A DNA stretch of 64,000 nt from Phycisphaerales bacterium (GTDB lineage: Bacteria > Planctomycetota > Phycisphaerae > Sedimentisphaerales > Anaerobacaceae), in the NCBI GenBank assembly GCA_003141315.1, contig PLLP01000024.1, positions 1 through 64,000 on the forward strand, read 5' to 3'. Positions 32,322 to 56,862 of this stretch are shown here, in pieces (within the stretch, counting starts at the first letter, position 1; each line of letters begins with the position of its first letter). The notes under the pieces were generated by a model. It saw only the letters and a list, made by a program, of their open reading frames with translations, was not told where the DNA came from and did no database searches. The translations under genes and the position numbers were made by a program.

Positions 32322-33543
32322 CCCGGGTGAAGTGAAAATTACGATAGGGCCGCAGCATCCTGCGTTAAAAGAGCCGGAAAGTTTTCTGCTCAGCCTTCAC
32401 GGGGAAAAGATAACGGCTTCGAGCGTAAGGCTTGGCTATAATCATCGCGGCATAGAAAAAGCCTGTGAAGACAGGACGTACGTCCAGGATTTGTATCTTG
32501 TCGAACGGGTTTGCGGTATATGTTCTCATTCGCATTCGACCTGTTTTGTGCAGGCGGTAGAAGAAATCGCCGGTATCGAGATACCTGCCCGCGCAAGCTA
32601 TCTTCGCACGCTGATTAGCGAGCTCGAGCGTATTCACAGTCACCTTTTGTGGCTGGGAGTGGCGGGGCACGAAATTGGTTTCGATACGCTGCTTATGTAC
32701 ACGTGGCGAGACCGCGAGGCGGTAATGGATGTGCTGGCGGCGATTACCGGCAACAGGGTAAATTATGGTATGAACACCATCGGTGGCGTGAGGCGTGATA
32801 TTACGCCGCAACACAAAGAGATGGTGCTTAAGGCAATAGATATCCTCGAAGAAAGAACGAAATATTATATCGAGCTCGGACTGGGGGAATCGACATTGCT
32901 TAAACGGCTGTCCGGTGTGGGCAAATTAACTAATGAAGACGTCGTAAGATTAGGCGCGGTCGGCCCGACTGCCCGTGCGTCCGGCTGGGGACGGGACGTG
33001 CGAAAAGATGACCCTTACGCAGCTTACGCACATCTCGATTTCAAAGTTATAACCAACGACCAGTGCGATGTGTATGGCCGGACGCTGGTGCGGCTCGGAG
33101 AGCTGATGGAGGCATACAGCATGGTGCGCCAGATTCTCCAGAAGATGCCGGATGGGCCGATTGCCGTAAAGGCGCCGCGCAAGATTCCAGCAGGCGAAGC
33201 GGTAAGCCGTTATGAGGCGCCGAGAGGCGAAGATTTTCATTATGTAAGGTCGAACGGCACGGACAAGCCCGACCGCGTAAAGGTAAGGGCGCCAACTTTG
33301 GCCAATGTCCAGGCTGTTTCAAAAATGCTGGAAGGCGGGTATCTGGCGGATATGTCGATTGTCGTGGCGGCGATTGACCCGTGTTTTTCCTGCACCGACA
33401 GGCTCATATCGGTTTGTGATGAGGATACGCAAAAGAAGAATACGGTTTCTTGGGAATCGATTCGGCTGAAAGGAATCGACTGGTATAAAAACCAGGGAAT
33501 CGATTTTACTTATTTGAATAAAAAATTGGCAAGGAAGTTTTAG
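32314..33543 (+). CDS. Group 4 [NiFe]-hydrogenase large (catalytic) subunit
   Basis: The start at 32314 is set by AAGGAG eight bases upstream; 409 residues. Both NiFe ligand pairs are present: N-terminal ERVCGICSHSHS (C67, C70) and C-terminal DPCFSCTDR (C357, C360). NuoD of complex I lacks these cysteines, so this is a hydrogenase rather than an NADH dehydrogenase subunit. After DPCFSCTDR a 46-residue tail remains, as expected for a precursor cleaved by a maturation protease; such a protease gene closes the operon. It would reduce protons to H2 (or oxidise H2) at a ferredoxin-linked site in the cytoplasm. No Hyp accessory genes are in the window. Confidence 0.93.
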   Translation: MHDPGEVKITIGPQHPALKEPESFLLSLHGEKITASSVRLGYNHRGIEKACEDRTYVQDLYLVERVCGICSHSHSTCFVQAVEEIAGIEIPARASYLRTLISELERIHSHLLWLGVAGHEIGFDTLLMYTWRDREAVMDVLAAITGNRVNYGMNTIGGVRRDITPQHKEMVLKAIDILEERTKYYIELGLGESTLLKRLSGVGKLTNEDVVRLGAVGPTARASGWGRDVRKDDPYAAYAHLDFKVITNDQCDVYGRTLVRLGELMEAYSMVRQILQKMPDGPIAVKAPRKIPAGEAVSRYEAPRGEDFHYVRSNGTDKPDRVKVRAPTLANVQAVSKMLEGGYLADMSIVVAAIDPCFSCTDRLISVCDEDTQKKNTVSWESIRLKGIDWYKNQGIDFTYLNKKLARKF

Positions 33544-33549
33544 AAAAAT

Positions 33550-34491
33550 ATGGCAAATGCGATTTTCAATATTTTGGTTTTCCCGGGATTTTTGTTTCTC
33601 TTTGTCTTTGGTTTTATCGCGGAATACGTGGACAGAAAACTTTACGCCCGCTTTCAGAACAGGGTAGGGCCTCCTTGGTTTCAGCCGTTTGCGGATTTCG
33701 TGAAGCTGATAAGCAAACAAAAAATAGTTCCGGATGAGGCTGACGTCGCCGTCTTTAAACTGGTGCCGATATTTGCGCTTACGGCGTCGATTACCGCTGT
33801 TCTTTACATACCTGTCTGGGGCAACAAGGCGATATATTCCTTTAACGGCGATATTATTGTTGTGCTGTATCTTTTGACGATTCCGACGTTCGCGTATTTT
33901 CTGGGCGGGTGGTATTCGAGGTCGGTTTATTCGATGATTGGCGCGGTGAGGTCGCTTACGCAGATATTTGCTTATGAGGTTCCGCTTTTCCTGTGCATGC
34001 TCGGGCCGGCACTGCTTGCAGATACGTGGTCTTTAAGCGGGATGGTTGCGTTCTATAACCAGCACCCCGGATATTGGTTGTGTAATTTGCTTGGATTTGC
34101 AGTCGCTCTTATATCGCTTCTGGGCAAACTCGAAAAAGTTCCATTCGATATACCGGAGGCGGAAACAGAAATCGTTGCGGGCGCTTTCACTGAATATAGC
34201 GGCAGATACCTCGCGTTGCTCAGGATGGCTCTTAATGTTGAACTGGTGGTGGGGGCATCGCTGCTTGCAGCCGTATTTTTGCCGTTCGGGTTTAACCTTA
34301 ATCCGGCTGCCGTATTTCCGTTATACATTATTCAGGTATTTTTTATTATCGCTATCGTTTCATTTTTGCGGACATTATTTGCGCGGCTGCGTCTCGACCA
34401 GATGATTAACTTTTGCTGGAAATACCTTGCTCCGCTGGCATTTGTGCAGGTCGTCATTAACCTTATCCTGAAAGGAATACTACCGAGATGA
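33550..34491 (+). CDS. NuoH-like membrane subunit
   Basis: 313 residues with eight helices. RFQNRVGPPWFQPFADFVKLISKQ is the family N-terminal loop and EKVPFDIPEAETEIVAGAFTEYSGRYLALLRMA the acidic loop facing the catalytic head. This subunit anchors the hydrogenase head to the membrane arm and couples redox change to ion movement. Overlaps the next gene (ATGA). Confidence 0.93.
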   Translation: MANAIFNILVFPGFLFLFVFGFIAEYVDRKLYARFQNRVGPPWFQPFADFVKLISKQKIVPDEADVAVFKLVPIFALTASITAVLYIPVWGNKAIYSFNGDIIVVLYLLTIPTFAYFLGGWYSRSVYSMIGAVRSLTQIFAYEVPLFLCMLGPALLADTWSLSGMVAFYNQHPGYWLCNLLGFAVALISLLGKLEKVPFDIPEAETEIVAGAFTEYSGRYLALLRMALNVELVVGASLLAAVFLPFGFNLNPAAVFPLYIIQVFFIIAIVSFLRTLFARLRLDQMINFCWKYLAPLAFVQVVINLILKGILPR

Positions 34492-34865
34492 GGAAACCAG
34501 GCAAGATAGCAGGGCAGCTTATACAATCTATTTTCAAGAAACCCGCCACGCTGAATTATCCTGCTGAAAGGTCGGGTATGCCGGAGGGGTTCAGGGGCAA
34601 ATTAAAATTCAATCCCGAAAAATGTATCGGCTGCAAAATGTGCATGCGCGATTGCCCGACGGGTGCGATTGAGATTGTAAAAGTTGGCGAGAAAAAATTC
34701 GAAGCCAAAATCGATTTGGGCAAATGTATCTATTGCGGCCAATGCGTGGACTCCTGTATGAAGGAGGCGCTTGGGATTACCAGTGAATTCGAGCTGGCAA
34801 AGTTGAACCCGGACGATTTAAAGATTACTTTTAATGCTGAAAATACAAGCGATTCTCAAAAGTAG
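34488..34865 (+). CDS. NuoI-like 2x[4Fe-4S] ferredoxin subunit
   Basis: 125 residues. Two complete cluster motifs: CIGCKMCMRDCPTGAIEI and CIYCGQCVDSCMKEAL. It is the likely docking and entry point for electrons from soluble ferredoxin, since no NADH module (NuoEFG) is present in the operon. Starts inside the NuoH stop; overlaps the protease gene by 32 bases. Confidence 0.92.
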   Translation: MRKPGKIAGQLIQSIFKKPATLNYPAERSGMPEGFRGKLKFNPEKCIGCKMCMRDCPTGAIEIVKVGEKKFEAKIDLGKCIYCGQCVDSCMKEALGITSEFELAKLNPDDLKITFNAENTSDSQK

Positions 34866-38963: not shown

Positions 38964-39980
38964 TTATGCCTTCGGAGGTTTTTCTTTTTTGGACTTTTTC
39001 TCTTTAGGCGGCTTGGGCGGCTTTACCTTTTTCTCTTTAGGTGCGGCATCTCCTTTTGAGCCTAATCCGGCGATGGCAGCGCCGCCGCCGATAATCAGCA
39101 TTGCGACGACAGCCAGGGCGCCTACAATAACCCAGCCCATATAAATGCCGAACATACTGCTCTTTGCCTTCAGAATCGAAGGCAGGCTGTATCCTGTTGC
39201 GGCTATTATTATCGTAAAGATTGTGACAATCAGCGGAATAACCAGAACGATACCCAAAACATTGCTGAACATATCCGGTTTTATTTCAGCAGCAGCCGGC
39301 ATTGCAAAAGCCACCGCAGCAGCTTCCATAGTCTGTTTTGGCATCTCCAGCATTTCCTCAGCCTTGATTGCATCTTCCATAGATGGCGGCGGTGCTGTCT
39401 TTCCCGGCGCTGCCGGCGCAGCATCCGGCGAATCTGATGTGTAGATTTCGTCGAGTATGCCGCCTAATGAAGTATCATCAGCCTGCAAAGAAAGGTCTAA
39501 TAGTCCGCCGCTGCCGAACGAATCAAGGTTCAAATCGCCCTTGTCTTTTCCTGCCGCTTTGCCTGAGCTGCTCCTGTTTGCATCCATAAGGTCATCGAGT
39601 TTATCCGAACCGGCGCCGGTCTCACCCAGATTCAGTCCATCGCTAAACAGGGCGGTGTCGGCGTTAATCATATCGGCTTTTGAGCCGGCTGTTTCATCTG
39701 CCAGAAAGATGCTCTCGTTCGCTTTTTCCTTCGGCTTCGAAGGGGCCTTGTTTTCTTCTTTTTTGGGTTCAGGCTCGTTTGTATCTGCGAGGACAAGCTG
39801 TTCGAAATCCGCATCAGCGTTCTCTTTGTTTATCGCGTCAACTTCCTCGACCTTAAAGAGCAGATTGGAACCGTCGCGAAATTCCCGCAGTTTGCCGGCC
39901 TTGACCATTTCCCTGATGTCGTCTTCGGATTTATGAAGCTTTTGAGCCACTTCCTGCAATGAGTAAAACATACCTGCCAT
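38964..39980 (-). CDS. Helix-turn-helix protein with membrane-anchored C-terminus
   Basis: 338 residues. The N-terminal ~50 residues (MFYSLQEVAQKLHKSEDDIREMVKAGKLREFRDGSNLLFKVEEVD) are an excisionase/MerR-like HTH_17 domain (this quoted in pieces: FYSLQEVAQKLHKSEDDI and KLREFRDGSNLLFKVEEVD). A long acidic, low-complexity linker follows, then two hydrophobic helices near residues 237-265 and 275-305, and a lysine/proline-rich tail (KEKKVKPPKPPKEKKSKK). The same helix-turn-helix type is common in planctomycete proteins with disordered linkers. It may sense or organise something at the membrane; no known function. It reads away from the tRNA-Pro gene. Confidence 0.65.
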   Translation of the reverse strand: MAGMFYSLQEVAQKLHKSEDDIREMVKAGKLREFRDGSNLLFKVEEVDAINKENADADFEQLVLADTNEPEPKKEENKAPSKPKEKANESIFLADETAGSKADMINADTALFSDGLNLGETGAGSDKLDDLMDANRSSSGKAAGKDKGDLNLDSFGSGGLLDLSLQADDTSLGGILDEIYTSDSPDAAPAAPGKTAPPPSMEDAIKAEEMLEMPKQTMEAAAVAFAMPAAAEIKPDMFSNVLGIVLVIPLIVTIFTIIIAATGYSLPSILKAKSSMFGIYMGWVIVGALAVVAMLIIGGGAAIAGLGSKGDAAPKEKKVKPPKPPKEKKSKKEKPPKA

Positions 39981-40188: not shown

Positions 40189-40263
40189 CGGGGTGTAGCT
40201 CAGCTTGGCTAGAGCGCCTGCTTTGGGAGCAGGAGGCCGCTGGTTCAAGTCCAGTCACCCCGA
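40189..40263 (+). tRNA. tRNA-Pro (TGG)
   Basis: A complete cloverleaf: acceptor CGGGGTG with CACCCCG and discriminator A; D-arm GCTCAGCTTGGCTAGAGC; anticodon stem CCTGC/GCAGG with loop TTTGGGA, anticodon TGG; T-arm CTGGTTCAAGTCCAG. No CCA is encoded. Its 3' half is repeated at 48789-48836, marking it as an integration target. Confidence 0.95.
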
Positions 40264-40375
40264 TTTTCGCAAACCTTGAATTTATAAGTGCTTACCCTTC
40301 GCTCAATTATTTCTGTGGATGTATGTTGTACATGCCTTAAGCAATAGGTTTTTAAGTATGTACAGAAGTTTAAAT

Positions 40376-41140
40376 TTACTTGGAATTAAATTTGCCGAGC
40401 AGCCGGAGCAGGCCATCCAGAATAGTCAGTGGGTGCGGGGGGCAACCGGGAATATACAAATCAACGGGCAGTATGCGGTCGGCGCCATTGTTGACTTCCG
40501 GGTGATTGATGTATGGGCCGCCGGCAATTGCGCAGGAACCAACCGCAATAACAACCTTGGGGTCCGGGATTGCTTCGCAGGTTTTCTTTAAGGCGAGTTT
40601 CATATTTTCAGTGACAGGGCCGGTGATGAGCAAACCATCCGCGTGACGAGGCGAGGCAACAAACTGGATGCCGAAACGTCCAAGGTCAAAGACGATGGTG
40701 GTAAGGACATTTGTATCTGCTTCGCAGGCGTTGCAGCCTCCCGCGGAAACCTGTCGCAGTTTGAGCGAGCGGCCGAGAACCCGGCGAATCCGGGTACCCA
40801 ATGCATCGGCAAGCTTAATCTCGGCATCGGATATTATCAGGTCTTCTCTGCTGCGGGCAGCCATTCGGTATTCGTTAGTGAATTGAATCGCACCTTTTTT
40901 GCAGGCCTGCTGACATTGGCCGCAAAAAATGCAGCGTCCCAAATCGAGTTTCAAACTACCGGCGGAACAGTGGATAGCATCTGTCGGGCAGACGTTTTCG
41001 CATTCGCGGCAATCATTAGCACATTTTTTGGTATCAACGACGGGACGCCCGCGAAAGCGGTCAGGCAGTGCAGGTTCGCCTTTCGGAAAGGCAATCGTTC
41101 TGTGTTTCTGCTGAATTCTCGCTAATATCGTTTTTATCAT
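40376..41140 (-). CDS. Fused ferredoxin / NuoB-like small subunit (HyfH-HyfI type)
   Basis: 254 residues. Residues 36-90 hold two [4Fe-4S] motifs (C40, C44, C47, C51: CANDCRECENVCP; C70, C73, C76, C80: CIFCGQCQQACKKGA). Residues ~120-254 are a NuoB-like small subunit with GGCNACEAD (C136, C139), GSCAIAGGPY and YIPGCPPHP for its proximal cluster. In most relatives these are two proteins; here they are one chain. All clusters are intact although the large subunit of this complex has lost its NiFe ligands, so electrons still have a path. Last gene of the island operon; start follows AAGGAAC. Confidence 0.88.
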   Translation of the reverse strand: MIKTILARIQQKHRTIAFPKGEPALPDRFRGRPVVDTKKCANDCRECENVCPTDAIHCSAGSLKLDLGRCIFCGQCQQACKKGAIQFTNEYRMAARSREDLIISDAEIKLADALGTRIRRVLGRSLKLRQVSAGGCNACEADTNVLTTIVFDLGRFGIQFVASPRHADGLLITGPVTENMKLALKKTCEAIPDPKVVIAVGSCAIAGGPYINHPEVNNGADRILPVDLYIPGCPPHPLTILDGLLRLLGKFNSK

Positions 41141-41149
41141 CTGAGTTCC

Positions 41150-42673
41150 TTATAAGTCATGGCCGCAATAGGAAAGGTTGAAACTTTTGTTGCAAAGCGG
41201 AAAGTCGGAAATCTGCTGATCCCTGAGTGCCATTGAAAGTCCCATCCAATTATGGAACGAGGGGTCAACAATTTTGTAATGGGAAAACCGGCCATCGGAA
41301 CCTGTTAAAGCGACGTGGCAAATTTCGCCCCGCCATCCTTCCACTAAACTTACGACAATTTTTTCCGGAGAAAGTGTATCGAGCGGCACGGCAGCATGTC
41401 TTTGCGGGAGCGTTTCCATCTGGTTATTGATAAAGGCGAGGGATTTTTGAATTTCGAGCCATCTTACATAAGCGCGTGCAAAGACATCGCCTGTATGCCA
41501 TGTCGAAACGGGAACCTGTGCGAACTGATATATGCCGGATGGAAAGTTGAAGCGGCAGTCGCGGTCAATGCCGCAGGCCCGTGCAATTACACCGACCAAT
41601 CCCAAATCAGCACAGGTCTTTTGGGTTAATGTCCCGGTTTCCTCGAATCTTGCGACAACGGAAGGCGTGCTCCAGAGCAGGTTGACCGCGACAGTGATGT
41701 CTTTAGCGGCTTTGGCCAGGCGGCCTTTGAGTTCTGTAAGATGTTTTTCTTCCAAATCGAAACCAGTGCCTCCCGGACAGATAAGGCCTCTTCCAAAACG
41801 ATTGCCGCAAATAAGTGCGGTCATATTAAGGAAGTCGCCGCGAATTCGTCCGCAGAATGAAGCGGTTGGGAGGTATCCGACGTCGCCGGCTAAAGCGCCG
41901 AGGTCGCCGGTATGATTTGCCAGGCGTTCCAATTCGAGGGCAATCGCCCGCAGGCTTTGAGCCCGTGCGGAGACGTTGCAATCGCAAAGGGCTTCAAATA
42001 TCTGGCAGTATGCGGCAGCGTGGCCGATAGTGGTGTCGCCGGCGGCGGTCTCCATATAATGAATGGTGCGTTTATTCGGGCCTCCGATTAAGGCTACTTC
42101 GATGCCGCGATGCTGATAGCCAAGTGAGATTTCGAGATTGAATACGTCTTCGCCATTACACTGGAAACGGAAATGGCCAGGCTCAATTATACCAGCGTGA
42201 ACCGGGCCGACTGCGACTTCGTGTATCTCTTCGCCGGTGAGCTGGAAAAAATTCGTAATACCCGGTATTATTTTATCTTCAGGTTTGCGTCCGAATGCAT
42301 CCTGTCCTTTACGGCAGGATGAATGAAAACGGATTGGCTTTAACCAGGGATGGCCGACGGGGGTAATCGCCCATTGCTCTGCGATTTCCCGTTCGAACCA
42401 ATGGGCCTGCGGACACTCTGCGGTCAATGACGGATAGCTTTCTTCCACGTCGGCGGAAGACAAAAATAAAGTGCCTGCCTCATCATTGGCAAGGACTGCG
42501 AACAGGCGGACACGGTTTTTATCGAGAGGCTTTCCAAACAAAGCAGATATTCGGCAGCCCGACTGAGCAGCCTTGATTATCCAGTCGCGGAAATCAGATA
42601 TCGGAATGACCGGAATTTTCGAGAGTTCCGAAACCTCGCAATTATAAATCTGAAGCGATTGTAATTTAGACAT
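41150..42673 (-). CDS. HycE/HyfG-like large subunit lacking NiFe ligands (Ehr type)
   Basis: The start ATG at 42673 overlaps the previous stop and follows GGAGG; 507 residues. The N-terminal ~150 residues are NuoC-like (FEREIAEQWAITPVGHPWLK) and the rest NuoD/HycE-like (LEISLGYQHRGIEVALI). Where hydrogenases have CxxC, this protein reads METAAGDTTIGH (AGDT at 211-214); where they have DPCxxC it reads DPSFHNW (470-476). All four NiFe cysteines are thus gone, and the 32-residue tail cannot be a normal cleaved peptide. Named knowledge: energy-converting hydrogenase-related (Ehr) complexes show just this loss. It is therefore not a hydrogenase; its redox partner or substrate is unknown. Confidence 0.88.
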   Translation of the reverse strand: MSKLQSLQIYNCEVSELSKIPVIPISDFRDWIIKAAQSGCRISALFGKPLDKNRVRLFAVLANDEAGTLFLSSADVEESYPSLTAECPQAHWFEREIAEQWAITPVGHPWLKPIRFHSSCRKGQDAFGRKPEDKIIPGITNFFQLTGEEIHEVAVGPVHAGIIEPGHFRFQCNGEDVFNLEISLGYQHRGIEVALIGGPNKRTIHYMETAAGDTTIGHAAAYCQIFEALCDCNVSARAQSLRAIALELERLANHTGDLGALAGDVGYLPTASFCGRIRGDFLNMTALICGNRFGRGLICPGGTGFDLEEKHLTELKGRLAKAAKDITVAVNLLWSTPSVVARFEETGTLTQKTCADLGLVGVIARACGIDRDCRFNFPSGIYQFAQVPVSTWHTGDVFARAYVRWLEIQKSLAFINNQMETLPQRHAAVPLDTLSPEKIVVSLVEGWRGEICHVALTGSDGRFSHYKIVDPSFHNWMGLSMALRDQQISDFPLCNKSFNLSYCGHDL

Positions 42674-44148
42674 CAAAATCCTCCAATCGCTTTGGCGGCA
42701 GCGTGAAGAGCAGTGTTCAAAAAAGGCGGAATGTATAAGCCGAAAATAAGAGTAAGGACGCCGAGAAAGGCAGGCGGCAGGATATTAAGAATTGTTTGGG
42801 AACCGGTTTGTGCGGAAATATTCTGCGGCGCTTTGCCCTGTGCCATATTCAGAAAAATTTTGGACATCGAGATAAATATCAGCGCAAGAACAGCAAGGTA
42901 TGCGATTGCGATACCAACGCGATGCTGCTCGAACATTGCCTTTGCGATGATAAACTCACTGATGAATAAGCCGAATGGAGGCAGGCCGACAATAGCAACG
43001 AACCCCGCCAGCCACAGAACACCGGTGGCAGGGGTAATGCTGATGATACCGGTGACGTCCTTTGAGGCCTTGGTTTTGTAGACGGCGAGGATGTTTCCTG
43101 CGACAAAAAAAAGCATCGCTTTGGTAAGGGAGTGATTAACAGCGTGGAGCATCGCTCCGAAGGCGGCGGCGCCGCTGACCCCGACGCCAAGAGCCAGAAT
43201 ACCCATGTGTTCGACGCTGGAATAGGCGAGCATTCGTTTGTAATCGGTTTGGCCCAGGATGAAAATAGCAGCCCAGATAATGGAGATGAGGCCGAAAACA
43301 ATCAGCAGGCTGGAGCTGAATTCACTTTGGCCGGCAGCGGAGAGCACCTGGTGGCTTCGCAGTATCGCCAGAAAAGCACAATTGAGCAAAGCGCCTGACA
43401 GAAGAGCTGATACGATAGAGGGCGATTCGCTGTGCGCATCCGGCAGCCATGTGTGCAAAGGAGCAAGTCCCATTTTTGTTCCGTAGCCGACGAGTAAAAA
43501 CAGAAATGCGGCGCGGAGCCATGGAATATTCAAAGTGCCGCCCTGTTGTATAAGGTCCGACAAAAGCAGTTTTGTGTCCTGGTTGCCGGCCTTGGCTGCG
43601 GCGACAGCTAAAAAGAAATTGCCAAGCAGGGCAAGTGCAATTCCAACCGAGCATATCAAAAGATATTTCCAGGTTGCTTCGAGGGAACGATTGTGACGAT
43701 GAAAATAAATCAGGGGGGCAGTGGCAAGAGTTGTTGCTTCCATTGCAACCCAGAGAAGACCTAAATGCTGGCTGGCTGTGACGAGGGTCATAGTCGCCAG
43801 AAACGCAAGCAGGCATGCTATGAAAATAGCTTCGGGAGTATTGGTAAAAATCGAACCATCCTCGAAGTCCTGCTTTTCCTGTTTCTTCTCAGAATTAAGG
43901 TAACCAACGGCATAAAACGAGGCAGCGAGGAACAGCACGCTCGTGATGCTTAAGAACAACAGGCCGGGCGCATCAAGCATAAGCCAGCCGTTCAATACAG
44001 GTTCGGGCGTGCGGCTCCACGCAATAGCGGTTAATACGCTGTGAGCAAACGCGGCCGATACGAATATCACACGGCGCAAAGTGTCGTGACGAATAATCAG
44101 CGACAAAATCGCGGCTATAATCGGAACCAAAATAAGTGCGGCTATCAT
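42673..44148 (-). CDS. HyfF-like antiporter subunit
   Basis: 491 residues, ~14 helices, PF00361 family. Markers are VAMEATTLATAPLIYFHRH, GTKMGLAPLHTWLPDAHSES, DYKRMLAYSSVEHMGILALGV (HyfF-specific SSVEHMG) and VNHSLTKAMLFFVAGN. One of two proton-channel subunits in the island complex. The stop overlaps the start of the large subunit gene (TGATG). Confidence 0.92.
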   Translation of the reverse strand: MIAALILVPIIAAILSLIIRHDTLRRVIFVSAAFAHSVLTAIAWSRTPEPVLNGWLMLDAPGLLFLSITSVLFLAASFYAVGYLNSEKKQEKQDFEDGSIFTNTPEAIFIACLLAFLATMTLVTASQHLGLLWVAMEATTLATAPLIYFHRHNRSLEATWKYLLICSVGIALALLGNFFLAVAAAKAGNQDTKLLLSDLIQQGGTLNIPWLRAAFLFLLVGYGTKMGLAPLHTWLPDAHSESPSIVSALLSGALLNCAFLAILRSHQVLSAAGQSEFSSSLLIVFGLISIIWAAIFILGQTDYKRMLAYSSVEHMGILALGVGVSGAAAFGAMLHAVNHSLTKAMLFFVAGNILAVYKTKASKDVTGIISITPATGVLWLAGFVAIVGLPPFGLFISEFIIAKAMFEQHRVGIAIAYLAVLALIFISMSKIFLNMAQGKAPQNISAQTGSQTILNILPPAFLGVLTLIFGLYIPPFLNTALHAAAKAIGGF

Positions 44149-44152
44149 CCGG

Positions 44153-44797
44153 TCAACTCCTCAGGCTCGACAACCTGTCGGTGTCGATGTGGTCTAATTC
44201 ACGATTGATGTGGAAAATTACGATACCCATCACGAAGACAGCAACGAACACATCTAACAGAATCCCAAGTTCGACAAGCAGCGGCTGCTTTTCGGCGAGG
44301 GTCATACCGAAGGTGAAGATGCCGTTTTCGAGAACTATGTATCCGAGCACCTGGGAGAGGGCTTTTTTCCTGCTGATAATCAAAAATAGGCCTGACATTA
44401 TGGTAAAGAAAGCGACAGGAACAAGCATCGGTGAGACAATATCAAGAGGAAGCGGCAGCCGGGAGCCTAACCACATGCAAACAACTAATGCCAGCGGGCC
44501 GATTATCACGGATTTTCCATATCCGATAAAAGGCTCGACCTCTCGCTGCGCACTTACATCACGCATAGCCCGCGAAAGAAGCCAGGGGAACACGATGCCC
44601 TTGAGACCTATGATAGCTGCGGAAAAAAGTGTAAGCCGAATGTCGGAAATTCCGCCGTGCATCACAAGAGGCAGGATACCCAGCGCTATGCCCTGTGCGG
44701 CAACGACGCGGATGCAGGTGCCGAGACTGCTCAGGCCAAGAAGCATCAGATTCATCAGCACAAGCAAAATCATTATTGTATCAATTGAATTATTCAT
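44153..44797 (-). CDS. HyfE-like membrane subunit
   Basis: The start ATG at 44797 (MNNSIDTIMILLVLMNLML) lies 4 bases after the HyfC-like stop; the open frame upstream to 44851 is overlap. 214 residues, seven or so helices; VLGYIVLENGIFTFGMTLAEK carries the conserved membrane glutamate of the NuoK-like part of HyfE. Links the antiporter subunits to the HyfC-like anchor. Confidence 0.9.
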   Translation of the reverse strand: MNNSIDTIMILLVLMNLMLLGLSSLGTCIRVVAAQGIALGILPLVMHGGISDIRLTLFSAAIIGLKGIVFPWLLSRAMRDVSAQREVEPFIGYGKSVIIGPLALVVCMWLGSRLPLPLDIVSPMLVPVAFFTIMSGLFLIISRKKALSQVLGYIVLENGIFTFGMTLAEKQPLLVELGILLDVFVAVFVMGIVIFHINRELDHIDTDRLSSLRS

Positions 44798-44801
44798 AAG
44801 C

Positions 44802-45713
44802 CTACCTTGAAACCAGAACCAAAGCCAAAATCGACAAAGCTGTTGCACCAAGAAGAAGCTGCGGAACGTGCAGCAATCTAAGCCTTGCCATAATTGATTC
44901 GATGATGCCTATAACAACAGCAAGAGCCAGCATTCCCAATAGCGATGAAACGATATCGAGTAATAAAATGCCGCTGTGAACCGGAACTATAATGCCAATC
45001 AGTATCGAACCTAAGAGCCAAAGTTTCAATGTTGCCCCATAAAGTATGAAGGCGAAGTCCGGCCCGCTGTGGTCGAGAACCATAACTTCGTGAATCATCG
45101 TCAACTCCAGATGTGTGTTCGGGTCATCGACAGGTATTCGACAATTTTCAGATAATAATACCACAAAAAACGCCAGGCTGATAAGAGCCAGAGCAGGGGC
45201 GGCGTGTCCCCACGAGACTGAATCTATGCCGGTAAGCATCGGGGAAAGTGAAATGTGGCCGGTATATTTGGCGACGGCGGCAAGGCCTATAAGAAACGCG
45301 GGCTCAGCCAAAGCGGAAAATGTCACTTCCCTGCTTGCACCCATACCTTCGAAGCTGGAGCCTGTATCGAGAGCGCTTAAGACCGTCATAAATCTTGCTA
45401 ATCCGAGAAAATATGCGAGGACAACAAAGTCGCCCTTGAAGGCAAACAAAGCAGGCAAACCGCCAAACGGAATAAAAACAGTAGCTGCAATAACCGCGGC
45501 AAATCCGACCAAGGGACCGGCGAGAAAAACCCATGTTGTCGTGCTGCTGTAGACTGCGCCTTTTTTGAAAAGCTTCGAAATATCATAATAGGTCTGCAAT
45601 AATGGCTGTCCCGTTCGGCCTGCGAATATCGCCTTTGTTCGATTGATGATTCCGAACATCAGAGGCGCCAGAAGCACAGCTAAAACAGAATTAGTAATCG
45701 ATATAAGGTTCAT
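44802..45713 (-). CDS. HyfC/HycD (NuoH-like) membrane subunit
   Basis: 303 residues, eight helices. FAGRTGQPLLQTYYDISKLFKK and FMTVLSALDTGSSFEGMGASRE match HycD/HyfC; VDDPNTHLELTMIHEVMVLDHSGPDFA is the acidic loop that faces the catalytic head. It follows the HyfB-like gene by 4 bases. Confidence 0.93.
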   Translation of the reverse strand: MNLISITNSVLAVLLAPLMFGIINRTKAIFAGRTGQPLLQTYYDISKLFKKGAVYSSTTTWVFLAGPLVGFAAVIAATVFIPFGGLPALFAFKGDFVVLAYFLGLARFMTVLSALDTGSSFEGMGASREVTFSALAEPAFLIGLAAVAKYTGHISLSPMLTGIDSVSWGHAAPALALISLAFFVVLLSENCRIPVDDPNTHLELTMIHEVMVLDHSGPDFAFILYGATLKLWLLGSILIGIIVPVHSGILLLDIVSSLLGMLALAVVIGIIESIMARLRLLHVPQLLLGATALSILALVLVSR

Positions 45714-45717
45714 AATT

Positions 45718-47697
45718 CTATCTCATCTTCCATACCAAAAGTATCAGAAGCGTAAGGGCGATATAAAGCACATAAAGTTGGAGCCTACCGTGTTGGAGCC
45801 AATGAAGCCTGGAAAGAGTTTTGTTAATCCAGTTAAAAACCGGCTCGAATAAATAGCGAAGGCTGACATCGGCGGTTTCCGTGGCGAAGCCGGATTCGGC
45901 GGGGAAATATTCTTTTGTCGAAACCGGTTTGCTGCGTGTCATCAGGAAAGGCTTAAAAAGGTATATAAGAGGCTGGGCGAACGAAGACGCCGTGTACTGC
46001 ATTCTTGGCGATGGCGCTGCATAACCGCAATCCCAGGTGCCCGCCGAGCGCACGGTGCGTCCGCGGAGCATCCATTTCCGCATCACTGCCAGAAACACTA
46101 CTAACCCGATAAGCAATCCAGCGGCAGCCACAAACCACCACATAACAGTGGAAGTATCAGCGACCTCCTCGGCGACAACCTGTGAGTCAAGCGAGGTTGC
46201 CTGCGTGAGAACAGGCGCAGCATAGCGAATCACATACGGCGACAACAGGCCAATAAGAATGCAGCAAATCGCCAGTATCAACATAGGCAGCCGCATCGCA
46301 AATGCAACTTCGTGAGCGCGGCGGGCATGCTCTGTTCGAGGCTCGCCGAGAAAGATAATTCCAAACGCCTTTGTGAAACAGGCACACGCGAGGCCGCCTA
46401 TCAAGGCCAACCCGCCTATAATGCACAGGGCTAACACGACCGCCTGCGCACCATTGGTAATGCCGTTTTTAAATACGCCGAGATAAATAAGAAATTCACT
46501 CGCAAAGCCGTTCAACGGAGGCAGGCCGGAAATTGCAACAGCGCCAATCAGGAAAGTAAGGCCGGTCCAGGGCATTCGTTTCAGCAGGCCGCCCAGGCTA
46601 TCGATTTCGCGGGTACCAGTGGCGTGAGCAATAGAACCTGCGCCGAGAAATAAAAGCCCCTTAAAAAAGGCGTGATTAACCACATGAAATAGTCCGCCCG
46701 CAAACCCAAGCACCGCCAAGGCAGGCAGGCCTGTGCTTAATCCGAGAAGCCCGAGGCCCAGTCCCAATGTGATTATTCCGATGTTCTCGACACTGTGATA
46801 TGCCAGGAGGCGTTTTAAGTCATGTTGCGCCAGAGCGAACAGGACGCCGAGAACGCCCGAACTTACTCCGATAGCGATAAGCAGCCATGCCCACCATTCT
46901 TGTGGCTGGCCGAGTAAAATCAGTGTCCTTACTAATCCGTAGATACCAGTTTTTATCATCACGCCGCTCATTACCGCAGAGACGTGGCTTGGAGCAGCGG
47001 GGTGCGCTTCAGGCAGCCAAACGTGCATCGGCATAAAGCCGGCCTTGGTGCCGAACCCGATGACCGCCAGCAAAAACAAAATGTTCGCGGTCGATGGAGC
47101 GATGTTGCCAATCACGTCAAAATCCAAAGAGCCGGTGCTGGAGCCGAGCAGGATGAAGAAGGCAAGGAGAAATGCCGTACCGATATGCATGGCGACAAGA
47201 TATGTCCAGCCTGCCTCACGGTTTTGTTTTTCTTCGTGCTCAAATGTGACTAAGAAAAACGACGCAAGCGACATCACTTCCCAGGCGATAAGGAACAGGA
47301 CGGCGTTTCGTGCAAGCACGACCATCGCCATCGACGCCGCCAGCATGTTATAAAAGAACCAGTGGGCGCCGAGAAATTTTTGCTGGTGGTAAGGCCGCAG
47401 ATATTGCGTTCCGTAGATGGCTGCTAAAGCAGACAGAACGAAGATGGGAATCAGAAACAACGCGGAAACGGGGTCAAGCTCTATGAAAAACGAGCCGAGC
47501 GGAATGCTCCAGTCATACCGCAGGGATTCTTTTGCTCCATTCAGAAGAACCGTTATCGCTGGTATAAGCCCGAGAACCGCACCGGCTACAACTCCTGCAC
47601 AGGCAAGCGAGGAAGATAGCTTTGGCTTATTGCCCCAAAGCAGCGCCACAAATCCGCTACAGGCGATTACACACAATCCCAAAATGAGCAGCGACAT
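45718..47697 (-). CDS. HyfB/HycC-like antiporter subunit
   Basis: 659 residues, ~16 helices. AWEVMSLASFFLVTFEHE carries the conserved glutamate; TKAGFMPMHVWLPEAHPAAPSHVSAVMSGVMIKTGIYG the lysine region; DLKRLLAYHSVENIGIITLG is specific for HycC/HyfB (YHSVENIG). The C-terminal extension includes RSAGTWDCGYAAPSPRMQYTASSFAQPL, also usual in HycC. First structural gene of the island complex, 37 bases after the regulator gene. Confidence 0.93.
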   Translation of the reverse strand: MSLLILGLCVIACSGFVALLWGNKPKLSSSLACAGVVAGAVLGLIPAITVLLNGAKESLRYDWSIPLGSFFIELDPVSALFLIPIFVLSALAAIYGTQYLRPYHQQKFLGAHWFFYNMLAASMAMVVLARNAVLFLIAWEVMSLASFFLVTFEHEEKQNREAGWTYLVAMHIGTAFLLAFFILLGSSTGSLDFDVIGNIAPSTANILFLLAVIGFGTKAGFMPMHVWLPEAHPAAPSHVSAVMSGVMIKTGIYGLVRTLILLGQPQEWWAWLLIAIGVSSGVLGVLFALAQHDLKRLLAYHSVENIGIITLGLGLGLLGLSTGLPALAVLGFAGGLFHVVNHAFFKGLLFLGAGSIAHATGTREIDSLGGLLKRMPWTGLTFLIGAVAISGLPPLNGFASEFLIYLGVFKNGITNGAQAVVLALCIIGGLALIGGLACACFTKAFGIIFLGEPRTEHARRAHEVAFAMRLPMLILAICCILIGLLSPYVIRYAAPVLTQATSLDSQVVAEEVADTSTVMWWFVAAAGLLIGLVVFLAVMRKWMLRGRTVRSAGTWDCGYAAPSPRMQYTASSFAQPLIYLFKPFLMTRSKPVSTKEYFPAESGFATETADVSLRYLFEPVFNWINKTLSRLHWLQHGRLQLYVLYIALTLLILLVWKMR

Positions 47698-47734
47698 TTA
47701 TTTTTTACCCACATTCCATCTTTATAGATGGGTT

Positions 47735-48409
47735 TTATTTTACATCTTTTTCAACTCGACAGACTTCAGCGAGGATTTCCTCACGGGTTCCCTGACGAGT
47801 GATAACATCCTTAAAGCCGGTATCCCGCAAGGCAAAAGCTAATCGCGAAAGCAAATACAGATGAGCGCGAACCGTCGGGCTGACCAGCGTGAACAAACAA
47901 TTGACCGGCTTATTATCCAGGGCAGCAAAATCTATAGGCTTTTCGAGAAAACACAGAGTCGCCATTGGTCCCGGCACATGGAGAACAATCGGATTACGAA
48001 CGTGCGGAATGGCGATGCCATCACCTATGCCAGTCGATGCCATAGCCTCGCGGGCCAGAAGCACCTGCAGAAGGAATTTTTTATCGACCTCCTCAGGCAA
48101 TCGCATCAATTCGACTACCGCGGCAAGTGCGGATTCCTTATTCGTACCGCCAACACGATAATGAATACTGCCGGCCATCAGCGCTTCAGACAGACCCGCC
48201 GGCGGCATAGACTGGCTTTCAAACTCCTGCAGGATATCAATAGAGAAGTTAACCTTGTGGCTGGTAGCCCATTCGAGAAGTTCGGCACGATTGAACCTGT
48301 AATGGTTATTCAGCCTGTAAGCGGGCAGATTTCCGCTTTGAACCCATCGATAAACCGTTTTTTCGTTGACGTTCAATAACTTTGCTACGTCTCTAACACT
48401 TAGCTGCAT
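47735..48409 (-). CDS. Helix-turn-helix / PTS-EIIA fusion, probable regulator of the island operon
   Basis: 224 residues. Residues 1-50 are an excisionase-family HTH (LSVRDVAKLLNVNEKTVYRW, LPAYRLNNHYRFNRAELLEW). Residues ~70-220 are a fructose/PtsN-type EIIA domain with the phosphorylatable histidine in GIAIPHVRNP (H136). It lies first in the island operon behind a consensus-spaced promoter. The combination suggests that the phosphorylation state of a PTS-like chain adjusts expression or activity of the membrane complex; no HPr or EI genes are in the window. The HTH might instead descend from an excisionase of the island. Confidence 0.8.
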   Translation of the reverse strand: MQLSVRDVAKLLNVNEKTVYRWVQSGNLPAYRLNNHYRFNRAELLEWATSHKVNFSIDILQEFESQSMPPAGLSEALMAGSIHYRVGGTNKESALAAVVELMRLPEEVDKKFLLQVLLAREAMASTGIGDGIAIPHVRNPIVLHVPGPMATLCFLEKPIDFAALDNKPVNCLFTLVSPTVRAHLYLLSRLAFALRDTGFKDVITRQGTREEILAEVCRVEKDVK

Positions 48410-48457
48410 TTTTTTCTCTTAATGGACAAACCGATACTTTCTTAGACAAAAGCCGAC

Positions 48458-48486
48458 ATATTAATAATCATGTCCTTAATAGTCAA
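48458..48486 (-). promoter_or_regulatory. Promoter of the island operon
   Basis: On the minus strand TTGACT (48486-48481), 17-base spacer, TAATAT (48463-48458), about 49 bases ahead of the HTH/EIIA start. Confidence 0.6.
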
Positions 48487-48788
48487 TATAATAATTTCAT
48501 CTTGTCGTAAAGCACGCTGCTGTTGAGATTCGGTCATCTTTAGAGGGCGTTATTGCAGTGAATGCGGCAACAGGGTATAATGCCTCCAAAAGCGTAGGAT
48601 AAGTGCAGCGACATATTACGAAAACCTTAGTTTGAATGTGTTTTTGACAGGCGGTCTTGAAAAATTACACTTTTGACTACACTTTTGCGGCTGCATTTAA
48701 AGGGATTTAACCGGTTTTATTGAGTTTTTGACTTTACGTAAGTTTAGTTTTTGCAGTAAGTTATAAAAAGTAGCGTTTTTCCGAAAAG

Positions 48789-48836
48789 GCTTTGGGAGCA
48801 GGAGGCCGCTGGTTCAAGTCCAGTCACCCCGATTTT
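48789..48836 (+). repeat. tRNA-Pro 3'-half copy (candidate att site)
   Basis: 48 bases identical to 40220-40267, from GCTTTGGGAGCAGG to CACCCCGATTTT. The 5' half of a tRNA is absent, so it is not a gene. It marks the distal end of the island. Confidence 0.92.
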
Positions 48837-49096: not shown

Positions 49097-51277
49097 CTAA
49101 AAGCTCCAGCCTAAGCCAGCGCTTATCGTAGCAGAAGAATCGCAGTATCCGATGCCTGCGCTAAGGGTAATATCTCTCTGTTCGCCGACAAGAGCCTTGG
49201 CGCCAAAGGCCACGGCATTCTGGTTAGAAAAATTTCCGTATCCCATTCCGACAGAAACATTCTTTCCCGCAACCGGAGCCGGGATAGCCGACAGCGCTGC
49301 TACAGAGGCTATACCTGCATAGGACTTGTCGATTCTGCCGTCAAGTCTTGAAATTTCTCTCTTGAATTGCCTCACATTAACCGCATCATAATCATTGACA
49401 CCCTCAGCAACGCCCATAACCCTTGCCGGTCCGCTCGTAGCTGTATCAGCGAATGTCGCCCCGTTATCATCCAGAGTTAAGGTCGTCGAGTTTGTTCCGC
49501 CGGAAATAACTGTGCTTGTCTGGCTGATTTCAATACCGTGTGATTCTCCTGTGTCCGTGTTCACAAGCAGTGAAACCGAGGTGCTATCCATCGCAAAACG
49601 GGAACGTGCGTTGGTGTTGGAGTTATCATTATCCGCAACCATCACGATGCTGTTGGATGCTTCGCTTTCTGTATTGCCTGTAATGGTAATCCCTGTATAT
49701 CCGCCGCTGAGATGGATGTTCGAATTGGTCACGGAAACAACGTGACTGCCATCTTCGCTGCTTATTGTGGTTTCGCCTGTAATCGTATTGGTTGCACCGG
49801 TCATCACATTGGTTGAAGTGCTGTTGCCTATGGTATTTACCGAATTCTCCGTGGTAACACCTATGTTATTGTTTGCGGCTTCGATGTTGTTTGTGCCGGT
49901 GGTGGCGTTGGCCGTAATATTATTCGTTCCATTTGCGCCGGTGGCTTCGATGGTATTTGACTGGTCGTTCGCATCGGCAGACATAACATTACTGCCCGCT
50001 GTTGCGGTTATTAAGTTATTGCCTGTAGTCGCTGTGATTGTGTTGCCCGTGCCGCCTGTCAACTGGTTTTGCCCGCCGGCGTCCAGAATATTGTCGGTGC
50101 CGGCAGTGAGGGCGTTCGTTGTGTCGGCCACAATCGAGTTTGTGCCGCCTTCGGCATTCGCCAACAGCTCATTTAACACGTTGTTGTCTCCGCCAATAGC
50201 TACGGATGTTGTCCCGTCAATATTCGCGGCGGTAATCACGTTAATTTCAGGGCTATCTGCCGTGCCGACAGAAAGGGTCGCAAGGTCATCCTCCAGTGTC
50301 AGGGTTGAAGAATTGGTGCCGCCGCTAAGCGTTGTCGTGTGGCTCGTCTGGTCAACAGTCAAACCCTCGCTATCAGCGGTCAGCGCTGAAACCTGAGTAG
50401 CTGTGGTAGCAACCGTAGCGCCACCCGTCACACCCATAGAACTGCTTGTTGTGCCGGTAATCGTGTTAGTGGCGCCGGTAAGGGTATTTGCTGAACCTGC
50501 AGTGCCGATGGTATTGGTTGCTCCGTTGGCTGTGAGGTTTCCGCCGACACTGGTGTTACCGTTTGTCGCAACTGTGAAATTACCGCTGTTAACATTTATG
50601 CCGCCATTCAATGACGACAGCCCAGTGACGCCTAACGTGTTGCTTAATGTTGTTGCACCTGTAACACCGAGTGTGCTGCTCAATGTTGTTGCGCCGGTAA
50701 CGCCAAGGGTGCTGCTTAATGTTGTTGCACCTGTAACGCCGAGGGTGCTGCTTAATGTCGCTGCACCGCTTACGCCAAGTGTGCTGCCGAGAGTCGCCGC
50801 ACCGGTAGTAGCCAGGGTACTTACTCCTGATACTGCGCCTGCGTTTGTAATACCGCTGCTGCTGTTATTAATGCCGCTTAAAGTGGAAGAGCCGCTTACG
50901 CTTAAATCGCCGCTGGCGGTGGTAGTCGAGCTGCCTACAGTTAAACTATTTGTGACCGTTGAAGTCCCACTGCCGCCGCCATTGGTTGTCGCGCTGATTA
51001 CGGTGGACTGGCCATTGGAAACAATTGTGTTGATAGAACTTGCTGAACCGTTCAAATCAGTCACAATAAAATTGCCGTAACCAAAGTTGTCATAATCCAC
51101 AAAAACCGTGACATCATCATCAGCGCCAATCTCACCGCTGGCGTTTCGCACTCCATCGCCAGCCGAATCGAAACCGCTGATATACGAATTAGCGGCCATT
51201 ACGTATTGAGGCTGCGCCATTACCATAACGAGAATCAGTATGGCCAGCTGTTTCAAAAATGTCTTCCGCCATTTCAT
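49097..51277 (-). CDS. Trimeric autotransporter adhesin (YadA-type anchor)
   Basis: 726 residues. A signal peptide (LAILILVMVMAQPQYVMAA) is followed by a Ser/Thr/Gly/Asn-rich stalk. Residues ~155-225 hold tandem 12-residue repeats of STLGVTGATTLS. Further shorter repeats (TNTITG..., NTIEATGANGTNNI) form a head/stalk, and the last ~95 residues (VNVRQFKREISRLDGRIDK, ALSAIPAPVAGKNVSVGMGYG, ISAGLGWSF) are the YadA-like membrane anchor. The protein should trimerise in the outer membrane and display the stalk for attachment. It is the second gene of a two-gene operon with the anchored protein at 51302, 24 bases away, with an AAAGGG ribosome site. Confidence 0.85.
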   Translation of the reverse strand: MKWRKTFLKQLAILILVMVMAQPQYVMAANSYISGFDSAGDGVRNASGEIGADDDVTVFVDYDNFGYGNFIVTDLNGSASSINTIVSNGQSTVISATTNGGGSGTSTVTNSLTVGSSTTTASGDLSVSGSSTLSGINNSSSGITNAGAVSGVSTLATTGAATLGSTLGVSGAATLSSTLGVTGATTLSSTLGVTGATTLSSTLGVTGATTLSNTLGVTGLSSLNGGINVNSGNFTVATNGNTSVGGNLTANGATNTIGTAGSANTLTGATNTITGTTSSSMGVTGGATVATTATQVSALTADSEGLTVDQTSHTTTLSGGTNSSTLTLEDDLATLSVGTADSPEINVITAANIDGTTSVAIGGDNNVLNELLANAEGGTNSIVADTTNALTAGTDNILDAGGQNQLTGGTGNTITATTGNNLITATAGSNVMSADANDQSNTIEATGANGTNNITANATTGTNNIEAANNNIGVTTENSVNTIGNSTSTNVMTGATNTITGETTISSEDGSHVVSVTNSNIHLSGGYTGITITGNTESEASNSIVMVADNDNSNTNARSRFAMDSTSVSLLVNTDTGESHGIEISQTSTVISGGTNSTTLTLDDNGATFADTATSGPARVMGVAEGVNDYDAVNVRQFKREISRLDGRIDKSYAGIASVAALSAIPAPVAGKNVSVGMGYGNFSNQNAVAFGAKALVGEQRDITLSAGIGYCDSSATISAGLGWSF
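50610..50830. repeat. 36-bp tandem repeats in the adhesin gene
   Basis: About six copies of a 36-base unit (core GTTGTTGCACCTGTAACACC in plus orientation) encode the 12-residue stalk repeats. Neighbouring units differ by only a few bases, so copy number may vary between strains. Confidence 0.8.
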
Positions 51278-52409: not shown

Positions 52410-54074
52410 ATGAATCCAGGAGCAGATATAAAAGCGCCGAGAGGTAATAAAATATCCTGCAAGGGTTGGCATCAGGAAGCTGCTATGCGTATGCTGATGA
52501 ACAACTTGGATTCTGAAGTTGCCGAAAAGCCTGAAGAATTGATTGTCTACGGAGGAAGTGGTAAGGCCGCACGCAACTGGGACTGTTTCCACAAAATCGT
52601 CAGCACATTGCAGAAACTGGAAAACGATGAAACCCTTCTCATTCAAAGCGGCAAACCGGTGGGAGTCTTTCGCACACATTTGGAAGCGCCGCGAGTATTG
52701 ATTGCTAACTCTAACCTTGTCCCGCGATGGGCTAACGCAAATGAATTCTCCCGGTTAGAGCAGCTGGGATTAATAATGTACGGGCAAATGACGGCAGGTT
52801 CGTGGATTTATATCGGCTCGCAGGGAATCCTTCAGGGCACTTATGAAACTTTTGCTGAGTGTGCCAGGCAGCATTATGGAGGAACGCTTCAGGGGCGGCT
52901 ATTGGTGACAGGTGGGCTCGGCGGTATGGGCGGCGCACAGCCTTTGGCCGCCACTATGAACGGCGCTGCATTTCTCGGCATCGATGTCGATGAAAGCCGT
53001 ATAAAAAAACGAATCCAAACGGGTTATTGCGACCAGATTTGCTACAACCTCGATGATGCCCTCGAACTGGTATTGTCTGCCAAACAAAAAAAACAGGCTT
53101 TGTCCGTAGGGTTAGTCGGCAATTGTGCGGAGGTTTTGCCGGAACTGGTTAGAAGAGGAATTGTGCCGGACGTCCTTACTGACCAGACCAGCGCACACGA
53201 TTTGCGGAATGGCTATATCCCCGCGGGCTTGTCTTTGCAGCAGGTCGCAAAAATGAGGAAAGATGACCCCGATGGTTACGAGCAGCGTGTCCTCGATTCT
53301 ATGGTGACACATGTGACGGCTATGCTGAAGCTCAAAAGGCTCGGTGCCGTCACATTCGATTACGGAAATAATATTCGCGGCCAGGTATGCGACCGGCGAT
53401 GTCTGAAAGAGGCCTTCGAGATACCGGGTTTTGTTCCGGAATATATTCGCCCGCTTTTCTGCAGGGGGTCGGGGCCTTTCCGCTGGGTGGCGCTTTCGGG
53501 AAATCCCAACGATATTAGCGTCACAGACAAAGCCATCATGGAAACGTTCCCGGATAAACCGGATTTGCACAACCTGATAAAAAAGTTTCAGCAAAAAGTG
53601 CGGTTCCAGGGACTGCCCGCCCGCATTTGCTGGCTGGAATATGGTGAACGGGCTGCGATTGGCGAGCGGTTTAACTGGCTCGTGAAAAATGGCAGGGTGG
53701 ATGCCCCGATAGTGATAGGAAGAGACCACCTTGATTCCGGGTCGGTAGCATCGCCTAACAGGGAAACAGAGGCAATGAAAGATGGGTCAGATGCTATTGC
53801 AGATTGGCCGCTACTGAACGCACTGCTGAATACTGCAAGCGGTGCAAGTTGGGTTTCCATTCATAGCGGCGGCGGTGTAGGCATCGGCTATTCCATTCAC
53901 GCAGGTATGGTGTGCGTAGCCGACGGGACTGATAACGCTTCCCGGCGTTTGCAGCGGGTGCTGACCAATGACCCCGGCACAGGCGTAATGCGGCACGCCG
54001 ACGCGGGCTATGAGCTGGCTGTTGAAACAGCAAAGAGGCATAAAATTCATCTGCCAATGATAACGGAGGAATAG
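52410..54074 (+). CDS. hutU: Urocanate hydratase
   Basis: 554 residues, full family length. NAD-binding and active-site blocks: [55 protein letters not shown], and the C-terminal [19 protein letters not shown]. It hydrates urocanate to imidazolonepropionate, the second step of histidine breakdown. First gene of the hut operon, with GGAGG 10 bases before the ATG. Confidence 0.96.
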
Positions 54075-54079
54075 TAGAA

Positions 54080-55591
54080 ATGAAACCGGTCACACAGGTT
54101 AGAATCAGGAATTTAAACGATGATATTGCGGCAAGTATTGCCAGGCTCAAGGTCGACCGAAGCAGGATTCGTGCATCGAGAGCCATCGTGGACAAAGCCC
54201 TCAAAGACGGGAAAACTTACTACTCCATCAATACCGGTTTTGGGATTTTGGCCAATAAGCGGATAAGCGACAATGAGCTTAAGAAGCTGCAGTATAATCT
54301 GTTGATTTCTCACGCCGTCGGGGTAGGGGAGCTTATTCCCAAAGATATTTCGCGATTGATGCTGGCTCTGAAAATTCATTCATTGGGGCTTGGATATTCC
54401 GGCGTTTCGGAAAAGGTTTTCGAGCGGCTGTTATTTCTGCTTGAAAATGACAGGATACCCGCTGTGCCGAAGAAAGGCAGTGTAGGCGCATCGGGAGACC
54501 TTGCTCCGCTGGCTCACATGTCTTTGCCTGTCATCGGGCAGGGGTTTTTCTGGGATAAAGATGGTAAGAAAACCATTCCCGCTCGTAAAGCGCTTAAAGA
54601 AGACGGGCTAAAGCCCATCGAACTGGAACCCAAGGACGGCCTTGCCTTAATAAACGGCACTCAGATGATGGCGGCGTATGGAAGTTACGTGCTTAGTAAG
54701 TGCGTAAATCTTCTGAAGGCGGCTGATATTATTTCCATAATTTCTCTGGAGGCTTTTCGCGGTAGTATAAAACCATTCGACCCGAGGATACACCAGGCTC
54801 GTCCTCACAAAGGACAGATTGACGTTGCGGGCAATGTTACAAAACTGCTTGCCAACAGTGAAATCCTGGAGTCGCACAGATACTGCAATCGTGTTCAGGA
54901 CCCTTACAGTTTGCGATGTATTCCCCAGGTTCACGGAGCGAGCAGGGACAGCATCGACCATTGTATCTCGGTTGTGGATACAGAGAACAATTCCGCTACC
55001 GATAATCCCCTTACGTTTGAGAATGGCGATATAATCAGCGGGGGTAATTTTCATGGTCAGCCGCTGGCGCTGGTACTCGATTTTGCGGCGATTGCGATGG
55101 CGGAGATGGCAAATATCTCTGAGCGGCGAACATATTTATTGCTGAAGGGCGGCGACGGACTTCCGCAGCTGCTGATGAGTGAAACAGGTATTAATTCCGG
55201 ATTTATGATTCCGCAATATACCGCCGCGGCGCTGGTAGCAGAGAACAAGGTGCTTGCGCACCCCGCATCGGTGGATTCGATTCCCACCTGTGTCGGGCAG
55301 GAAGACCACGTGAGTATGGGCAGCATCTCCGCACACAAACTCCTGGAAGTATTCCGGAACGTGGAGTTGGTATTGGCTATTGAGCTGATAACATCCGCCC
55401 AGGCGCTGGATTTCAGAGACCCGCTGAAACCGGGCGATGGTGTTGTCGCTTCACATAAACTTATCAGAGAACACATTCCCCACCTTTACGAGGACAGCTA
55501 TTTCGCAAATCTTATTGCTTCTGCGCTCGATTTGATTCAGTCCGGCAAACTTGTTGCTGCCGTCGAAGCCAAATGCGGTGAATTAAAATGA
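54080..55591 (+). CDS. hutH: Histidine ammonia-lyase
   Basis: 503 residues. The MIO cofactor triad Ala-Ser-Gly is in GSVGASGDLAPLAHM (137-139). SINTGFGILANKRI and the C-terminal QEDHVSMGSISAHK are family signatures. It deaminates histidine to urocanate. It starts 5 bases after hutU and overlaps hutI. Confidence 0.96.
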   Translation: MKPVTQVRIRNLNDDIAASIARLKVDRSRIRASRAIVDKALKDGKTYYSINTGFGILANKRISDNELKKLQYNLLISHAVGVGELIPKDISRLMLALKIHSLGLGYSGVSEKVFERLLFLLENDRIPAVPKKGSVGASGDLAPLAHMSLPVIGQGFFWDKDGKKTIPARKALKEDGLKPIELEPKDGLALINGTQMMAAYGSYVLSKCVNLLKAADIISIISLEAFRGSIKPFDPRIHQARPHKGQIDVAGNVTKLLANSEILESHRYCNRVQDPYSLRCIPQVHGASRDSIDHCISVVDTENNSATDNPLTFENGDIISGGNFHGQPLALVLDFAAIAMAEMANISERRTYLLLKGGDGLPQLLMSETGINSGFMIPQYTAAALVAENKVLAHPASVDSIPTCVGQEDHVSMGSISAHKLLEVFRNVELVLAIELITSAQALDFRDPLKPGDGVVASHKLIREHIPHLYEDSYFANLIASALDLIQSGKLVAAVEAKCGELK

Positions 55592-56817: not shown

Positions 56818-56862
56818 CAGCTTTTTATTTCGCAGTTAACACGGATTAAGGAAGGAATATAT

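Follow-up and report, generated by a model that had tools for sequence, protein, structure and literature searches.

How did the genes of a whole respiratory-type membrane complex come to lie between a proline transfer RNA (tRNA) gene and a copy of that gene's 3' half? The question is raised by contig PLLP01000024.1 of a Phycisphaerales bacterium (assembly GCA_003141315.1, here genome G000; 2.35 Mb, 96.6% complete), a contig of 278 kb of which the first 64 kb, hereafter the window, were analysed. We found that the segment 40268-48836 is most probably an integrated tRNA island, in which an integrative element carried in the operon of a hydrogenase-related (Ehr) complex and has since lost its integrase.

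A single tRNA gene was found within the window, tRNA-Pro(TGG), together with an exact direct repeat of 48 nt on the same strand whose copies lie 8569 bp apart from start to start. The initial annotation had reported an exact 48-base copy of the tRNA-Pro 3' half about 8.5 kb from the intact gene, and this was confirmed at every position. The features concerned are as follows.

40189..40263, plus strand: tRNA-Pro(TGG), found by ARAGORN; putatively the integration target, rebuilt by the island, with the left attachment (attL) core in its 3' part
40220..40267, plus strand: left occurrence of the 48-nt direct repeat, which begins at the anticodon stem and extends 4 nt past the 3' end, found by the repeat search
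48789..48836, plus strand: displaced 3' part of tRNA-Pro, the putative right attachment (attR) core, 48/48 identical

On its sequence, the exact repeat is not a chance occurrence. The 3' end of tRNA-Pro reads ...CACCCCGATTTT, and the sequence to the right of the half copy, from 48837 on, is TCCGCCAGTCCGTC. The half copy might have been one of many in the genome, a possibility that the initial annotation had named; the sole other match in the whole genome covers 34 nt at 88% within tRNA-Pro(GGG), so the half copy is not scattered. Islander recognises island ends by a regenerated tRNA together with a displaced 3' fragment, correctly ordered and oriented (PMC4383910). The window island has this same layout, with an intact tRNA and a displaced fragment of the same orientation downstream of it. 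Islander requires an on-board integrase, however, whereas neither a profile search nor a gene survey of the island found a tyrosine recombinase on board. No integrase remnants were found in the window, and the genome has just two tyrosine recombinases, both of the XerC/XerD type. The absence of an integrase points to a defective or non-autonomous island rather than an active one of the Islander type; not every island encodes an integrase (PMC4383910). Upstream of tRNA-Pro(TGG), an HTH_17 gene at 38964-39980 is the same neighbour in a dozen or more genera of the family.

The 296 bp between the operon and the half copy, taken from the window alone, were used as the first DNA search query and matched 11 other genomes of the order, chiefly over window positions 48664-48727. 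The fetched matches share some 130 bp of conserved sequence, including the tandem arms TACACTTTTGACTACACTTTTG, and nine of the right ends found in this way continue into a tRNA 3' half from the anticodon region of an Ala, Val or Pro tRNA. A sequence-only model was built from nine such ends, that of the window among them, with the tRNA part left out, and it matches 19 of the 397 genomes of the class. Four of the 14 hits that were outside the model and uncut by a contig end are followed by a strict T-arm motif, for which the chance expectation is 0.44% per 155 nt, and about eight of these 14 new hits have a recognisable Pro, Val or Ala half next to them, as judged by eye. Window positions 48663-48786 score 87.7 bits with the model, of which the window is one of the nine rows. 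By its arms and conserved block followed by a tRNA half, the window island belongs to this element family, and its two ends are annotated as follows.

40268..40375, no strand: left island end, where the arm repeats and integrase gene of other family members are absent
48551..48788, plus strand: right end of the integrative-element family, with a degenerate inverted arm at about 48551-48608, direct arms TTACACTTTTGACTACACTTTTG at 48665-48687, and conservation up to about 48786

Left ends of the family were found in three other genomes. In G013, tRNA-Pro(TGG) is followed by arms and a tyrosine recombinase of 382 amino acids; in G096, tRNA-Val is followed by arms and a recombinase fragment of 185 amino acids, 75% identical to that of G013; and in G058 a tRNA-Ala with arms forms the left end. 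In the G096 element (L340:64-8300) the right end with its half copy follows some 8 kb further along, and the cargo differs from that of the window, comprising a surface protein of the HYR/PKD type, an M48 protease and an rve transposase. The truncated gene of G096 is integrase decay seen in place. Searches of viral contigs for HyfG, the operon regulator, the arm pattern and the family integrase gave no convincing relative, and phage and plasmid records gave only weak, remote matches of about 24% to the family integrase. No paper on the element family was found in the open-licence literature that was searched, and the family is apparently undescribed so far.

Seven genes lie between the tRNA copies, all on the minus strand and all of full length by comparison with relatives. 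This agrees with the initial annotation, which described genes reading one way and encoding a Hyf set (HyfB, C, E, F, G and a fused H/I) plus a regulator. In order of position they are:

40376..41140, minus strand: HyfH/HyfI fusion with two [4Fe-4S] domains and a NuoB-like subunit (PF00037, PF01058)
41150..42676, minus strand: HyfG-like (NuoC/D) large subunit without cysteines ligating nickel and iron (NiFe) (PF00346, PF00329; alignment to formate hydrogenlyase (FHL) subunit 5 and with 12 relatives)
42673..44148, minus strand: HyfF-like antiporter-type membrane subunit (PF00361; hydrogenase 4 subunit F models)
44153..44797, minus strand: HyfE-like (NuoK-like) membrane subunit (PF00420, NF008556)
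44802..45713, minus strand: HyfC-like (NuoH-like) membrane subunit (PF00146)
45718..47697, minus strand: HyfB-like antiporter-type membrane subunit (PF00361; hydrogenase 4 subunit B model)
47735..48409, minus strand: operon regulator with HTH_17 and EIIA-2 of the phosphotransferase system (PTS) (PF12728, PF00359; conserved IPH histidine motif in the alignment)
48410..48492, minus strand: predicted operon promoter region, the upstream edge of the transferred unit, where homology to G024 ends

The ATG start of HyfE gives a protein of 214 amino acids, as in relatives and of the same length as the gene of G024. The closest solved relatives of HyfH/I are MbhJ and FHL subunit 7, and the retained iron-sulphur (Fe-S) subunits are similar to MbhJ and FHL subunits 6 and 7. 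The two CxxC NiFe-ligating motifs of group 4 NiFe hydrogenases are not present in the large subunit: in the alignment of HyfG with FHL subunit 5, CGICGFAH is replaced by AGDTTIGH and the C-terminal DPCYSC by NLSYCG, and these replacements are kept in all 13 homologues aligned. As the NiFe cysteines are absent, the complex is of the Ehr type and not a hydrogenase. The term group-4-type of the initial annotation was therefore apt only for the hydrogenase kinship of the complex. Ehr complexes are relatives of group 4 hydrogenases with antiporter-like subunits and no Ni-Fe ligands, and are suspected of coupling redox reactions to ion translocation (PMC6349859). The predicted subunits of the window complex fit this definition in their group-4-like set, their antiporter-like members and their missing ligands. 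The complex probably takes electrons via two Fe-S subunits to a partner or to quinone and couples this transfer to the pumping of ions by HyfB and HyfF. It differs from the published description in lacking formate dehydrogenase and nuoEF genes in the operon and in the gene for a helix-turn-helix (HTH)/PTS-EIIA regulator, which heads the operon in most of the examined loci with a complete region; this pattern makes PTS-linked control of an Ehr complex a question worth pursuing. The island is not the supplier of the genome's only complex of this kind, since a separate complex-I-like cluster with three antiporter-type subunits and NuoB/D/H/I-like genes lies 5 kb to the left of it, at window 25194-34865.

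A homologue of HyfG was found in 13 of the 60 relatives compared, with 41-84% identity over most of its length. The initial annotation had remarked that such complexes are usually taken to be core, vertically inherited genes; given this patchy presence the complex is not core in the group, and a tRNA-linked island with Hyf genes is already on record (PMC3826726). G024 belongs to a different genus. Between G000 and G024 the six structural proteins of the operon share 87.5% identity against 75.2% for RpoB, whereas the operon identity of most other pairs at similar RpoB identity is about 48-79%; on HyfG alone, this pair is one of two clear outliers. Over 8102 bp the DNA of the two genomes aligns at 84%. 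The limits of this alignment are 48492, which is 83 bp ahead of the regulator gene, and 40394, at the end of HyfH/I, with no homology beyond either side. As this identity is too high for vertical descent and the homology is confined to the operon, the comparison shows the operon to have been acquired horizontally. For the same pair the synonymous divergence (dS) of the operon is 0.53-0.84 and the ratio of nonsynonymous to synonymous divergence (dN/dS) about 0.06-0.10, which shows purifying selection acting on the operon; the dS of rpoB is saturated. Ehr operons were seen in over 500 matching stretches from many phyla, and in a wider comparison phyla are intermixed in the HyfG tree. Two further loci, L043 and L044 (in G037 and G040), have two HyfB genes per operon and are 83% identical in the operon against 73% in RpoB; to judge from these identities, this pair is probably another transfer.

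The same cargo was found beside other tRNA genes, a check that the initial annotation had proposed. The operon of G005 is part of an 11-kb island that runs from tRNA-Val(TAC) to a 21-nt exact copy of the tRNA 3' end, and in which a tyrosine recombinase gene extends up to tRNA-Val. In G024, 34 bp separate the end of the operon from the 3' end of tRNA-Gly(CCC), and an integrase fragment lies upstream, where the contig ends; in G014 the corresponding distance to the 3' end of tRNA-Ser(TGA) is 113 bp; and in L100 the operon starts 171 bp after tRNA-Ala. At G024, G014, L100 and other operon loci close to a tRNA gene, searches gave no tRNA half copy above shuffled controls, and among the tested operon loci only the window and G005 have one. 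In L101 the operon is 91% identical in DNA to that of G005 (RpoB 97%) with the match limited to the operon, and its neighbours are obgE and a type I restriction-modification system. The differing neighbours of G005 and L101 indicate that the location of the operon varies between close relatives. The tyrS, hflX and MgtE-like genes next to the operon in G005, G014 and G024 were used to look for empty sites, and these genes proved not to be conserved. Two other integrases near operons were considered as vehicles and rejected: that upstream of the operon in L104 is Xer-like and follows an apparent topA gene, and is thus housekeeping, and that beside tRNA-Lys in L106 is oriented away from the operon. 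Adjacency to a tRNA is uncommon for the operon across all phyla, which makes tRNA islands one vehicle among several.

In the reading that we favour, an element of a family targeting tRNA-Pro, -Val and -Ala genes would have recombined at tRNA-Pro(TGG), where identity begins at the anticodon stem. The incoming copy would have rebuilt the tRNA and displaced the native 3' part to 48789-48836. The cargo would be a single operon that encodes the Ehr-type membrane complex, has a promoter and a regulator of its own and was presumably on board at integration, and the integrase, expected just to the right of the tRNA, would have been lost after arrival. The conserved element end, the operon-only homology to G024 and the G005 island with its integrase bear out the earlier proposal of a tRNA-targeted cargo. 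They also led us to reject its alternative, an ancient fixation with the half copy as a chance relic, as did the excess of operon over RpoB identity. Several observations weigh against our reading. The left arms and the recombinase of G013 and G096 are absent from window 40268-40375; the window's element end was not found at any of the other Ehr operon loci tested, which means that the operon does not usually travel with this family; and downstream of tRNA-Pro, relatives in other genera of the family have no conserved gene in common with the right flank of the window. The tetranucleotide composition, proposed earlier as a check, does not mark the island, whose distance of 0.127 (GC 0.499) is not atypical beside the 0.09-0.17 of other stretches.

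The lack of the element end at other Ehr loci would also be expected if tRNA-Pro had already held a decayed element, the owner of the half copy and the arms, which the operon then entered by some unrelated route. The homology to G024 ends exactly at the operon edges, and genome pairs have the operon in common but not its neighbours, which suggests that it moves as a unit on different carriers. We consider such a later insertion unlikely, as the half copy is still identical at 48 of 48 positions, the operon occupies 8.1 of the 8.5 kb with nothing else of an older element left inside, and the G005 operon within another integrase-bearing tRNA island indicates that such elements do carry it. A vertically inherited complex, with the tRNA fragment as chance or relic, would accord with the purifying selection, with the ordinary composition and with the poor synteny that is normal between these genera; it is very hard to maintain against the identity to G024 far above that of RpoB, the presence in only 13 of 60 relatives and the conserved element end next to the tRNA fragment.

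The integrase raises a separate alternative. The initial annotation put delivery without an integrase too firmly: none is on the island, but relatives of the element carry one. An integrase that was never on board would imply a non-autonomous island mobilised in trans by a helper integrase recognising the arms. The right arms are indeed well conserved in the window (87.7 bits) and a family integrase lies at the same tRNA in G013, although in a genome with only two XerC/XerD-type recombinases any helper would be transient. We regard this as improbable, since a mobilisable island would need both sets of arms and the left arms, present in G013, G096 and G058, are missing in the window, and since the integrase of G096 decays in place. 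Integrase loss is the simpler view, as element relatives have the gene just after the tRNA, once in truncated form, and the island is probably immobile now unless helped in trans. A broader proposal, which we put forward as speculative and rather doubtful, is that a class-wide and so far undescribed element family in planctomycetes of the Phycisphaerae type changes its target among tRNA-Pro, -Val and -Ala but retains a single conserved att end, its integrase-less members being mobilised in trans as compact carriers of whole respiratory operons. As the element family has several tRNA targets and a single conserved end, target switching by the integrase can be tested directly.

Elements with tRNA-targeted cargo are known elsewhere. 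Tycheposons are cargo-carrying, tRNA-targeted elements with tyrosine recombinases, outside the classic phages and integrative and conjugative elements; the window island resembles them in its tRNA-targeted cargo, but the hosts differ. The closest published parallel by gene set is GIAcaTY.4 of Acidithiobacillus caldus, an island linked to tRNA-Ser-GGA and flanked by direct repeats that carries hyfBCEFG (PMC3826726). It differs in having 105 kb and 94 open reading frames with its own integrase, Tra genes and hup hydrogenase genes, as against 8.5 kb, one operon and no integrase in the window. The same paper cites other cases in which mobile elements bear NADH dehydrogenase (NDH-1) subunits and hydrogenases. 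Hyf genes on tRNA-linked islands and islands without an integrase are thus already known, whereas the compactness of this island and the seemingly undescribed element family are apparently new. This small tRNA island consists mainly of the genes of an energy-converting membrane complex. The 130-bp end offers a sequence handle by which such islands may be recognised after integrase loss, and could tie the spread of Ehr operons to particular vehicles, beyond the reading of incongruent trees.

Beyond the right flank of the island, histidine-degradation genes (hutU, hutH, hutI, ftcD-like) were found at window 52410-58695, with the hutU match almost absent among the 60 relatives. Nearer to the island, just to the right of the half copy, a trimeric adhesin-like protein with a YadA anchor is encoded at window 49097-51277.

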